NCBI GenBank assembly: GCA_021323735.1
Contig: JAJPKM010000023.1
Coordinates: 124,001 to 188,000, forward strand
Origin: Gammaproteobacteria bacterium
GTDB lineage: Bacteria; Pseudomonadota; Gammaproteobacteria; Steroidobacterales; Steroidobacteraceae
Direction: 5' to 3'
DNA length: 64,000 bases
Part shown: positions 10,399 through 16,300 of the stretch, piece after piece
How positions within the stretch are numbered: the first letter of the stretch is position 1
How the letters are laid out: each line of letters starts with the position of its first letter
Program-made: the position numbers and the translations under genes
Notes under the pieces: model-generated
Seen by the model: the letters and a program-made list of their open reading frames with translations, nothing else
What the model was told of the DNA's origin: nothing
Databases searched by the model: none

Positions 10399-13300
10399 TC
10401 ATCGATGCAGCCACATGCGTAACGCCGAGATCAACTGCTGGATATTCACCGGCTTCGCCAGATAGTCGGACGCTCCCGCGTCCAGACATTTCTCACGGTC
10501 GCCCTTCATGGCCTTCGCGGTCAACGCCAGAATCGGCAGGCGGCGGTGCCCCGGATTGGCGCGAATCGCCTGGATGGTTTCGTAGCCGTCCATCCCGGGC
10601 ATCATGATGTCCATCAAGACGATGGCAATGTCGGGTCTGACCGCCAGCACCCCGATGGCCTCGCTGCCGGTCGTGGCAGTGAGCACTTCCATGCCATGCC
10701 GCTCGAGCACGCTGCTCAAGGCGAAGATGTTGCGCGCATCGTCATCCACCAGCAGCACGGTCCGGCGCAGCAAGTCTTCGTCCGAACTGTGCAATCGCTC
10801 CAGCATGCGCTGCTTGGCCGACGGCAGGTCGGCGACTACGCGATGCAGGAACAGCGCGGTCTCGTCCAACAACCGCTCCGGCGATTCCACCCCCTTCACC
10901 ACCACGCTGCGCGCCATGGTATGCAGTTTCGCGTCCTCATCCGGCGATAGCTCGCGGCCGGTGAATACCACCACGGGCACGTCGCACAGCGAGGGGTCGT
11001 CGCGGATGCGCTCCAGCACTTCGAATCCGGACATGTCCGGCAGCTTGAGGCCGAGCACGACGCAATCGATGGCAATGTCCCTGAGCTGCAGCAGCGCGTT
11101 CGCGCCCGTGTCGACCGGTATGATCTCGATGTCATCCGAGCCCAGCAGCTCCATGACGCTGCTGCGCTCCACCGCGTCGTCTTCGACCAGCAACAGACGC
11201 TTGCGCCGCGATTTCGCGTACCCCTTGATGCGCGCAAAGGCATTCTCCAGCCCTTCCGGGGTCGTGGGCTTCTGCACGAAGGAGAACGCGCCCCGCGCCA
11301 GCCCGTGATGGCGGTCCTCGTCCAGGGTGACGATCTGCACGGGGATGTGCCGCGTCGTGGGGTCTTGCTTCAACTGGCTCAGCACCGTCCAGCCCAGCAT
11401 GTCCGGCAGGAAAATATCCAGCGATATCGCGGTGGGATGATGCGCACGGGCCAGCGCCAGCGCATCCGCGCCGCGATGCGCCACGAGCACCTTGAATCCC
11501 TCGTCGCGCGCCAGATCGACCATGACGCGCGCATAGTGCGGATCGTCCTCGACGATGAGCACCACGCTGTCGTCCGGTGCCAGACGCTCGCGATCGTCTT
11601 GGACCCGCTCGACCGGCCGCTCGGCCAGCAGTGCCTGCGTCACCCCGCCATGAGCGGCGGCCGGCGCGCTGTCGGAGCGCGGGGCAGCCTTCGCCGAAGC
11701 GCCGCCCAGATAGGTGAGCGGCAGGTACAGGGTAAAGGTACTGCCGATACCGGGTGCGCTGCGCAATTGAATTTCGCCGCCCAGCAAATGCGCGAGCTCG
11801 CGGCTGATCGCCAGGCCTAAGCCGGTGCCGCCGTACTTGCGGCTGGTGCCGGCATCGGCCTGCTGGAAGGCCTCGAAGATGATGCGCTGCTTCTCGGCCG
11901 GTATGCCGATGCCGGTATCCGAGACTTCGAAGGACACCACCGATGGCGCGTGCTTGAGCACCGGATGATCCGCGTTCCAGCCGCTCACCGCGGGCGCGAC
12001 CTTGAGTTTCACACCGCCCTCCGCCGTGAACTTGAACGCATTCGACAACAGATTCTTCAGCACCTGCTGCAGGCGCTTCGAGTCGGTGATGATGCTGCGG
12101 TCCAAATCCGGGGAAATCGCGATCTCGAACTGCAGTTTGCGATTTTCCGCCTCGTGGCGGAACGGACGGCCGATCATGTCGAGCAGATTGCTGAAGTACA
12201 CCTCTTCCGCGTCCACCGAGACGGTGCCCGATTCGATCTTCGACAGATCGAGGATGTCGCTGATCAGGTTCAAGAGATCGGTGCCGGCGCCATGAATCGT
12301 GCGCGCGAATTCCACCTGCTTGCCGCTCAGGTTGCCCTCGGGATTCTCGGTGAGCTGCTGGCCGAGGATCAGGATGCTGTTGAGCGGCGTACGCAATTCG
12401 TGCGACATGTTCGCCAGGAATTCCGATTTGTACTTGGAGGTCAGCGCCAATTCGGTGGCCTTCTCCTCGACCGCGCGCCGCGCCTCCTCGATTTCCTGAT
12501 TCTTCGCCTCCACTTCGACGTTGCGATCTGCGAGCTGCTGCGCCTTTTGCTCCAGCTGCTCGTTGGTCTGCTGTAGCTCGCGCTGCTGAGTCTGCAGCTC
12601 GGTGGCTAGCTGCTGCGATTGCTTCAGCAGGCCCTCGGTCTGCATGGTGGCTTCGATGGAATTGAGAACGATGCCGATCGAGGTCGTGAGCTGCTCGAGG
12701 AAGGACATCTGCAGATCGGTGAATGTGCCCACCGAGGCCAACTCGATGACGGCCTTGACCTGCCCCTCGAACGATACCGGCAACACGATGGCATTGCGCG
12801 GCGGCGCCCGGAACAGCCCGGAACTGATGGGCACCACGGTATCCGGCATTTCGGTGATGAACATGCGCCGCGCGTCGCGGGCGCATTGGCCGATGAGGCC
12901 CTCGCCGATCTGCAAGTGCTCGGAATAACCGTTGGACACATCGTCCGCGTAGGCGGACAGCAGTTTGAGCGTGGCAGCCTCGCCATCCGTCTGTACCTGG
13001 TAGATGACGCCGTGCTGCGCACCCACCAGAGGCGCCAGTTCCGACAGCAGCATGCGGCCCACCGTCGTCAGGTCGCGCTGTCCTTGGAGCATGTTGGTGA
13101 ACCGCGCCAGGTTGGTCTTGAGCCAATCCTGCTCGGTATTGCGATCGGTCGTGAGGCGCAAGTTGCCGATCATCGTGTTGATGTTGTCTTTCAACTCCGC
13201 CACTTCGCCGCGCGCCTCGACCTGCACCGAGCGCGTCAGGTCGCCCTTGGTCACGGCCGTGGCCACTTCGGCGATGGCGCGCACCTGCGTGGTCAGATTG

Positions 13301-16300
13301 GCCGCCAGCAAGTTCACGTTGCCGGTGAGGTCCTTCCACGTGCCGGCGGCGCCCGGCACGTTGGCCTGGCCGCCCAGGCGGCCCTCGACGCCGACTTCGC
13401 GGGCCACCGTGGTGACTTGATCGGCGAAGGTCGCCAGCGTATCGGTCATGTTGTTGATGGTCTCGGCCAACGCCGCCACTTCGCCCTTGGAGGCGACGGT
13501 AAGGTTTTGCTTCAGGTCGCCGTCGGCGACCGCGGTCACCACCTTGACGATGCCGCGCACCTGCTCGGTGAGATTTGCCGCCATGACGTTGACGGTATCG
13601 GTGAGATCCTTCCACGTGCCGGCGACGCCGGGCACCTGCGCCTGGCCTCCCAGGCGCCCCTCGGTACCCACCTCGCGCGCCACGCGGGTGACTTCGCCGG
13701 CGAAACCGTTCAGCTGATCCACCATGGTATTGATGGTGTTCTTCAGCTCGAGAATTTCGCCCTTCACGTCCACGGTGATCTTGCGCGACAAATCGCCGCG
13801 CGCCACGGCCGTGGTCACCTCCGCGATGTTGCGCACCTGCGTGGTCAGATTCGCCGCCAGCAGATTGACGTTATCGGTGAGATCCTTCCACGTGCCGGCC
13901 ACGCCCGGCACCACGGCCTGGCCGCCCAGCCGGCCGTCGGTGCCCACTTCGCGCGCCACGCGCGTCACCTCGCCGGCGAATGAGCGCAGCTGATCCACCA
14001 TGGTGTTGAGCGTCTCCTTCAGCAGCAGGATTTCGCCGCGCACGTCCACGGTGATCTTGCGCGACAAGTCGCCGGTGGCGATGGCCGTGGCCACTTCGGC
14101 GATGTTGCGCACCTGTGCCGTCAAATTGCCGGCCATGGAGTTGACGTTGTCCGTCAAGTCCTTCCACGTGCCTGCGACCCCGGGCACCTGCGCCTGGCCG
14201 CCGAGTTTTCCCTCCGTACCCACCTCGCGCGCCACGCGGGTGACTTCGCCGGCGAAGCCGTTGAGCTGGTCCACCATGGTGTTGATGGTGTTCTTCAGCT
14301 CGAGAATTTCGCCCTTCACGTCCACGGTGATCTTGCGCGATAGATCGCCGCGCGCCACGGCCGTGGTCACCTCGGCGATGTTGCGCACCTGGCCGGTCAA
14401 ATTCGACGCCATGGAATTGACGTTTTCGGTGAGGTCCTTCCAGGTGCCGGCGACGCCGGGCACGTTGGCCTGGCCGCCGAGCTTGCCCTCGGTGCCCACT
14501 TCGCGCGCCACACGGGTCACTTCGGAAGCGAAGCGATTCAGCTGGTCGACCATGGTGTTGAGCGTTTCCTTCAGCTGCAGGATTTCGCCCCTCACGTCCA
14601 CCGTGATCTTGCGCGACAGGTCGCCGTTCGCGATGGCGGTGGACACTTCCGCGATGTTGCGCACCTGCGCGGTGAGGTTTCCGGCCATGGAATTGACCGA
14701 ATCGGTCAGATCCTTCCAGGTACCCGCCACGCCTGGCACCTGCGCCTGGCCGCCCAAGCGGCCTTCGGTGCCGACTTCGCGCGCCACGCGCGTCACCTCG
14801 CCGGCGAAGGAACGCAGCTGATCCACCATGGTGTTCAGCGTCTCCTTCAACAGCAGGATTTCACCCGACACCGAGACAGTGATTTTCTTCGACAAATCGC
14901 CCTGCGCCACGGCCGTCGCCACTTCGGCAATATTGCGCACCTGGCCGGTGAGATTCGACGCCATGGAATTCACCGAATCGGTGAGATCCTTCCACGTGCC
15001 CGCCACACCCTTCAATTGTGCCTGGCCGCCCAGCTTGCCTTCGGTGCCGACTTCGCGCGCCACGCGCGTCACCTCGCCCGCGAAGGCATTCAACTGGTCC
15101 ACCATGGTATTGATGGTGTCCTTGAGTTCGAGGATCTCACCCTTCACGTCCACGGTGATTTTCTTCGACAAGTCGCCATTGGCGACCGCGGTGGTCACCT
15201 CGGCGATATTGCGGACCTGACCGGTGAGGTTCGACGCCATGGAGTTGACGTTCTCGGTGAGATCCTTCCAGGTGCCGGCGACGCCGCGCACATTGGCCTG
15301 TCCGCCGAGGCGCCCTTCGGTACCGACTTCGCGCGCCACGCGCGTCACCTCGGAGGCAAAGGCGTTGAGCTGGTCCACCATGGTATTGATGGTTTCCTTC
15401 AGCTCGAGGATCTCGCCCGACACGGTCACGGTGATCTTCTTGGCGAGATTGCCGCTGGCAATGGCGGTCGACACTTCGGCGATATTGCGCACCTGCGCGG
15501 TCAGATTCGACGCCATGGAATTCACATTGTCGGTCAGATCCTTCCAGGTGCCGGCGACGCCCGGCACCTGCGCCTGTCCGCCCAGCCGCCCCTCGGTGCC
15601 CACTTCGCGCGCCACGCGGGTGACTTCGCCGGCGAATGCATTGAGCTGGTCGACCATGGTGTTCATGGTTTGCTTGAGCGCCAGAATTTCACCCGACACA
15701 TCGACGGTGATCTTGCGCGACAGATCGCCGCGTGCCACGGCGGTGGTCACCTGCGCGATGTTCCTGACCTGCGCGGTGAGATTGCCGCACATGGCATTGA
15801 CCGAGTCGGTGAGATCCTTCCAAGTGCCGGCGACGCCCGGCACCTGCGCCTGCCCGCCCAGCCGCCCCTCGGTGCCGACTTCGCGCGCCACGCGCGTCAC
15901 CTCGGAGGCGAAGGAACGCAGCTGGTCGACCATGGTGTTGATGGCTTCCTTCAGCTGCAGGATCTCGCCGCGCACGTCCACCGTGATTTTCTTCGACAGG
16001 TCGCCGTTGGCGACGGCAATCGTGACTTCGGCGATGCTGCGGACCTGCGCGGTCAGGTTCGACGCCATGGAATTGACGCTTTCCGTCAGGTCCTTCCACA
16101 CGCCGGTCACTTCCCGGACCTGGGCTTGACCGCCCAGCTTGCCGTCGGTGCCGACTTCGCGCGCGACGCGCGTGACTTCCGAGGTGAAGATGCTGAGCTG
16201 CTTGATCATCGTGTTGACGATGTTCGCCGAGCGCAGGAACTCGCCTTTCAACGGCCTGCCGTCGACATCCAGCGGCACGGTCTGCAGCAAGTCGCCGCGC

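Follow-up and report, generated by a model that had tools for sequence, protein, structure and literature searches.

We propose, with a probability of roughly 0.7, that a giant kinase gene in a Steroidobacteraceae genome encodes a soluble, group III-like poly-HAMP hybrid kinase of the AskB type known from Myxococcus xanthus, that it was acquired together with an AskC-like partner from an alphaproteobacterial lineage, and that its long HAMP rod acts as the input and control element. The gene lies on the reverse strand of a window of 64,000 nucleotides (Gammaproteobacteria bacterium, assembly GCA_021323735.1, contig JAJPKM010000023.1, positions 124,001 to 188,000; all coordinates below are those of the window). 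New here are the conservation of the repeat units at the level of the HisKA domain, changes of unit number that seem to favor steps of two, a partner gene next to most kinase copies and the horizontal insertion of an 8.6-kb segment.

An initial annotation of the sequence had described a giant soluble kinase in which eleven head-to-tail units of 92 residues precede GAF, kinase and three receiver domains, and this outline stands. Residues 204-1215 split into eleven units of exactly 92 residues, or 276 bp, each; a repeat finder reports 10.6 copies with a period of 276, and self-identity of the protein is 0.72 at offsets of 92 and 184 residues and 0.71 at 276. The array limits given at that time, 13147-16182, describe the same length, but in a register shifted by 15 bp, or five codons, from the one used here (13132-16167). 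Both Pfam models for HAMP, PF00672 (HAMP) and PF18947 (HAMP_2), match eleven stretches over the array, and therefore each 92-residue unit is read as a HAMP pair (di-HAMP). A solved homologue agrees with the annotated HAMP identity. Residues 51-333 align without a gap to chain 9trk, labelled "histidine kinase, Gcn4p" (E 1.6e-108), and residues 51-243 align to chain 9trj (E 4.3e-60). Given the gap-free match to 9trk, residues 57-203 ahead of the array are taken as HAMP as well; read by pattern, they would hold one B-type HAMP and one A-B pair, and a weak additional unit match directly ahead of the array occurs in this kinase and in its relatives. The total would then be about 25 HAMPs, one B-type followed by twelve A-B pairs; the Pfam search by itself backs 22. 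A hydropathy scan, with no dedicated predictor, gave no evident membrane helix in the kinase, the highest 19-residue value being 1.79 within receiver 3. HisKA, HATPase and receiver are found by Pfam on a single chain, as expected of a poly-HAMP hybrid kinase, and the tandem HAMPs above cutoff with repeats of HAMP pairs of about 90-92 residues place the protein among the group III-like soluble kinases. The phospho-acceptor histidine of HisKA and the acceptor aspartates of receivers 1 and 3 are kept in 64 of 64 aligned eleven-unit proteins.

The di-HAMP units are conserved across phyla at the level of HisKA. Among eleven divergent eleven-unit proteins, chosen for a tail identity below 75%, mean pairwise identity is 0.84 for units 1-9 and 0.82 for units 10-11, next to 0.82 for HisKA, 0.70 for HATPase, 0.58 for GAF, 0.51-0.66 for the receivers, 0.52 for the N-terminal HAMPs and 0.12 for the first 56 residues; 54 of the 92 positions of units 1-9 are at least 95% identical. 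HAMP domains are commonly seen as relays with a freely drifting sequence, and the single control used here fits that view. This control is a HAMP kinase of the same genome, which we take to be NtrY-like, searched in 16 genomes (the copy of G259 was omitted, so that the host and 15 relatives remain). Measured against the host protein, its relatives are on average 39% identical in HAMP, 65% in HisKA and 45% in HATPase, while the poly-HAMP kinases reach 88/90% in units 10/11, 91% in HisKA and 78% in HATPase. This unbinned comparison is uneven, because the poly-HAMP gene appears to be horizontally acquired and its copies would be younger. In a matched control, pairs were binned by HisKA identity (120 pairs of 16 NtrY-like proteins, against 114 poly-HAMP proteins). 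At a HisKA identity of 60-70% the NtrY-like HAMP is 34% identical (24 pairs) and units 10/11 are 72/76% identical (186 pairs); the values are 45% versus 76/78% in the bin of 70-80% and 59% versus 82/86% in that of 80-90%. When pairs are binned by HATPase identity the contrast persists but is smaller at 60-70%, with 71% for the HAMP (5 pairs) and 76-78% for the units.

The array had been annotated as unusually large, with nearly identical central units that spoke for recent expansion or active homogenisation, and most of this has to be revised. Among the relatives counted, eleven units are the commonest form of a widespread, little-studied kinase family. We scanned named genomes with two conserved patterns of the pre-GAF linker and counted units in the best 80 of at least 583 relatives by identity, a biased set. 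An array was called complete if its open frame is not cut by the contig and the N-terminal extra unit is seen (the open reading frames (ORFs) of L086 and L102 are doubtful); 56 of the 80 are complete, 43 of them with eleven units. In whole-genome searches the region was matched in 56 of 398 Pseudomonadota genomes including the host (E <= 1e-20, many matches weak), in 30 of 297 Acidobacteriota genomes, the phylum of L114, and in 19 of 294 Planctomycetota genomes, the phylum of L112 (both E <= 1e-35). From these, 28 of 71, 21 of 30 and 15 of 21 match rows were taken, respectively, mostly strong ones with long open frames, and yielded 22, 20 and 14 complete arrays, 56 together. Eleven units occur in 20 of these (10/22, 7/20 and 3/14 by phylum) and nine in 18 (9/22, 7/20 and 2/14), so that 38 of 56 have one or the other number; eight units are found four times, fourteen three times, ten, thirteen, seven and six twice each, and twelve, sixteen and two once each, a range of 2 to 16. 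In most complete arrays, unit starts are exactly 92 residues apart. The pooled arrays omit three loci of the host's own genus or family, two of them complete with 8 units; 8 units each are present in the same-family genomes G031, on a single contig, and G026, and the expected difference in unit number between related genomes is thus real. The copy of the same-genus genome G010 (L148, G010:C193) has 4 units in a broken frame with the contig end inside the gene, which would fit true loss as well as assembly collapse.

The central units are also less alike than had been thought. Pairs of units 1-9 are 72-83% identical in DNA, except units 7 and 9 with 90%, and 75-93% identical in protein; they differ by 12-37 synonymous codons, and the longest exact repeat of the array, with copies two units apart, is 59 bp, which is below the usual length of a short read. 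This divergence gives no sign of recent homogenisation or of assembly collapse. In 64 complete, regularly spaced eleven-unit arrays (the host and 63 others, some from close species), units at the same position in two genomes are 0.915 identical and units at different positions within one genome 0.848, which speaks against recent expansion and against active homogenisation in this set; a unit finds its best match at its own position in 64% of cases among units 1-9 and in 99.7% among units 10-11. In the eleven divergent proteins this order is slightly reversed (0.842 versus 0.857), and the same position is best in 98% for units 10-11 and in only 26% for units 1-9 (chance 9%). These values suggest that units do turn over, if slowly, and to this extent the idea of homogenisation survives. 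A three-cluster cut over the 64 arrays gives the unit classes {2,4,7,9} and {3,5,6,8} with unit 1 apart, and a two-cluster cut merely separates unit 1. Units two apart are more alike than neighbors in 60 of the 64 arrays (not independent cases, since the arrays are related) and in 8 of the 11 divergent proteins. Of 37 changes of unit number placed on the kinase tree by parsimony, 15 are steps of two units, 7 of one and 8 of three, and 7 are larger; as this is one reconstruction over 114 leaves, with many metagenome assemblies and the two doubtful ORFs among them, the preference for steps of two units is suggestive only.

The kinase and its partner appear to have been acquired as one two-gene unit of 8.6 kb from an alphaproteobacterial lineage. 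In G017, a genome of the same genus, the matches to the flanks end at 8595 and restart at 17163 with 131 bp in between, compared with 8567 bp here, and in G013, likewise of the same genus, about 1.1 kb separates the corresponding flanks; the flanks of the segment are native. A close copy was found in one of 22 other same-genus genomes, G010, and seems to be located at a different site, as its 16.8-kb contig shares no other match above 150 bp with window positions 3001-24000. A tree was built for the GAF-kinase part from 45 selected rows out of 140. In it, the gene and the G010 copy fall within a set with Enterovirga, Methylobacterium and Rhizobium (Shimodaira-Hasegawa-like approximate likelihood ratio test, SH-aLRT, 98), and the copies of the host's own family fall outside it. 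A tree that forces the four own-genus and own-family copies together, a group defined after the first tree had been viewed, is rejected (p-value of the approximately unbiased test, p-AU, 7.5e-23). The NtrY-like gene shows the reverse closeness, with 54-58% identity to own-family genomes and 28-32% to those of rhizobial type. The genomes that group with the rhizobia share the phylum of the host, not its class. A promoter and terminator scan gave sites not above the shuffled mean, and neither border region holds a repeat that resembles the end of a mobile element.

A partner accompanies the kinase in most loci examined. Of 101 loci, each with no fewer than four units and 1.2 kb of sequence downstream, 81 have a co-oriented ORF related to the partner (E <= 1e-20) directly downstream. 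In many loci the alignment is confined to about residues 38-208 of the host partner, that is, its N-terminal receiver and the stretch that follows. A receiver is present in all ten partners that were scanned, with the best receiver stretch N-terminal in eight; the partners of L047 and L146 have two receivers, of which the C-terminal one is the better. The remainder varies and includes HisKA, HWE or HisKA_3 kinase, PAS, GAF or a second receiver. The kinase type is exchanged among HisKA, HWE and HisKA_3 while the receiver is kept, for example in the partners of L039, L054, L103 and L059. The true start of the partner in the host is likely to lie inside its ORF.

Table 1. Features of the kinase locus, with positions in the window.
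Feature	Position	Strand	Remarks
Poly-HAMP hybrid histidine kinase ORF	10399..16776	-	2125 aa; GTG start, ATG 8 codons further in
N-terminal divergent HAMPs, residues 57-203	16168..16608	-	match to solved chains 9trk/9trj
Eleven di-HAMP units of 92 residues, residues 204-1215	13132..16167	-	repeat finder, Pfam, self-alignment
GAF domain, residues 1234-1371	12664..13077	-	Pfam GAF_2, E 8.7e-17
HisKA phospho-acceptor domain, residues 1450-1517, His 1459	12226..12429	-	Pfam
HATPase_c, residues 1565-1688	11713..12084	-	Pfam
Receiver 1, about residues 1734-1850	11227..11577	-	limits approximate; acceptor Asp 1787 present
Receiver 2, about residues 1865-1985	10822..11184	-	limits approximate; acceptor position 1909 is Gly
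Receiver 3, residues 2007-2119	10420..10758	-	acceptor Asp 2056 present
Segment with both genes	8596..17162	.	borders approximate; missing from the corresponding site of two same-genus genomes
Partner gene, receiver - HisKA - HATPase - receiver	8651..10489	-	Pfam; ORF overlaps kinase end by 91 nt

Elsewhere in the window, a 55-bp tandem repeat lies at 18685-18790 and further tandem repeats with periods of 15, 63 and 21 at 54451-55093. The stretch 20789-20970 has copies of 86-90% identity on contigs C12 and C1 of the same genome and is possibly a dispersed repeat.

By analogy with better known kinases, the rod is most likely the input and control element. The kinase would form a parallel dimer in which the HAMP rod sets the on or off state of the GAF-HisKA-HATPase module, keeping it, by analogy with CaNik1p and the Ask kinases, in a set state and letting it go upon input. 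The 56 residues before the first HAMP are barely conserved and match no Pfam domain; with no conserved domain ahead of it, the rod would be the likeliest input site and GAF the second. Input, such as a ligand, an ionic or osmotic change or a bound partner, would probably be taken up by the rod itself and by GAF, and phosphate from His1459 could then pass to receivers 1 and 3 and, through its N-terminal receiver, to the partner protein.

Several observations weigh against this interpretation. Receiver 2 has lost its acceptor: residue 1909 is Gly (window 11050-11052), as in one other protein, while Asp is found in 62 of the 64 aligned eleven-unit proteins and in the copies of G010, G031 and G026. 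No related partner was found in 20 of the 101 loci at the cut-offs used. The conservation argument relies on one transmembrane kinase in 16 genomes as control, and the contrast is small at a HisKA identity of 90-100% (NtrY-like HAMP 87%, units 92/94%); the NtrY HAMP reaches 80% identity in the two own-family genomes, much as the poly-HAMP units do. Slow turnover among the units is another possible reason why all of them are conserved. A structure prediction of units 4-6 failed, with a mean predicted local distance difference test score (pLDDT) of 41; the regular helices that it shows, two long ones in each unit, would agree with a HAMP chain at this low confidence. Finally, the kinship to AskB and AskC is one judged from architecture and gene order.

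A bolder version of the rod as input element is tentative, and we hold it for possible without favoring it: the di-HAMP array itself would be a multi-site sensor or scaffold, and not a relay between sensor and kinase, its surface, repeated eleven times, being held as tightly as HisKA across phyla, and two alternating unit classes would be gained and lost in pairs, which would make a module of four HAMPs. The two-unit steps can also be explained by unequal recombination between like units without any functional module, because the copies of the longest exact repeat are two units apart. It is unlikely that the rod serves mainly as a passive spacer or ruler, whose eleven units would set how far an N-terminal anchor lies from the kinase, or the torsion between them, and whose length, not surface, would matter. 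Eleven as the commonest count in the named set as well as in the pooled phyla, the exact 92-residue spacing and the two-unit step as the commonest inferred change (15/37) would all suit a ruler, but a spacer would need neither the 54 nearly invariant positions nor conservation at HisKA level, arrays of two to sixteen units exist with nine nearly as common as eleven, and the N-terminal 56 residues offer no conserved anchor. Less probable again is a role as a scaffold, with DNA or regulator proteins bound all along the rod, as suggested for AskA and AskB at the mrpC promoter: in the reported experiments, AskA, AskB and AskC were obtained together with DNA of the mrpC promoter and showed in vitro binding to MrpC and FruA (PMC7643160). 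The units do show partial Pfam shadow matches of helix-turn-helix (HTH) type (SpoIIID 3.1e-12, HTH_6 0.002), and 54 of 92 conserved positions are more than we would expect of a four-helix core alone. However, the HTH-like matches overlap HAMP and no single HTH stretch passes alone, the array is net acidic (105 K+R versus 119 D+E), and MrpC and FruA regulate development in M. xanthus. That the unit number is an assembly artefact, a risk raised in the initial annotation, or a recent expansion in this strain can be rejected: it is well known that tandem repeats can be misassembled, and the G010 copy is short and broken, but the units have diverged, no exact repeat exceeds 59 bp, and eleven units recur in 63 further arrays that are complete and regularly spaced and whose units resemble those of other genomes position by position.

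With at least 22 HAMPs in the cytosol and hardly any change in sequence, this array lends itself naturally to testing whether HAMP arrays can sense or bind something on their own, and the family it belongs to appears to move between bacterial classes. Literature searches gave AskA/B/C, fungal kinases, FrzCD, Aer2 and other HAMP work; among the papers listed there was no study of the poly-HAMP family in alphaproteobacteria and none on the structures 9TRK/9TRJ, in which the opening HAMPs of a relative, and no more of it, are fused to Gcn4p. Fungal Nik1 has a single receiver and, to our knowledge, no GAF domain, whereas GAF and three receivers are features of the kinase described here. The likeness to fungal group III kinases lies in the 92-residue paired HAMP repeats: the nine HAMPs of CaNik1p are described as four pairs of 92 residues and one single, compared with eleven pairs and N-terminal HAMPs here, and the array controls kinase output, since loss of all HAMPs turns the pathway on without stimulus (PMC3848655). 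Group III has been called fungal-specific in a paper from 2024 (PMC11253588), and the present kinase is not a member in the strict sense of fungal origin and a high-osmolarity glycerol (HOG) phosphorelay: the gene is bacterial with its nearest copies in Pseudomonadota, and the resemblance is one of working only. The fungal counterparts are targets of fungicides. What the repeats detect would be easier to find out in a simple bacterial model. The chemoreceptor Aer2 also carries HAMPs in series, as its solved structure shows (weak sequence match to 3vol, E 0.0037), but it is a receptor and not a kinase, of low similarity and with fewer HAMPs, a tri-HAMP region being described (PMC12077210). In M. 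xanthus, the ambruticin sensor kinases AskA, AskB and AskC bind one another; AskB is a poly-HAMP hybrid histidine kinase said to resemble soluble group III kinases, with 11 repeated partial HTH matches overlapping its HAMPs, and askC, for a second hybrid kinase, lies directly downstream of askB (PMC7643160). The ambruticin response and the developmental regulators are described for that system. The locus shares with it a poly-HAMP hybrid kinase followed immediately downstream by the ORF of a second hybrid kinase, and the SpoIIID and HTH_6 shadow matches resemble those over the HAMPs of AskB. Thus, judged by architecture and gene order, AskB/AskC of M. xanthus would be the closest known system.

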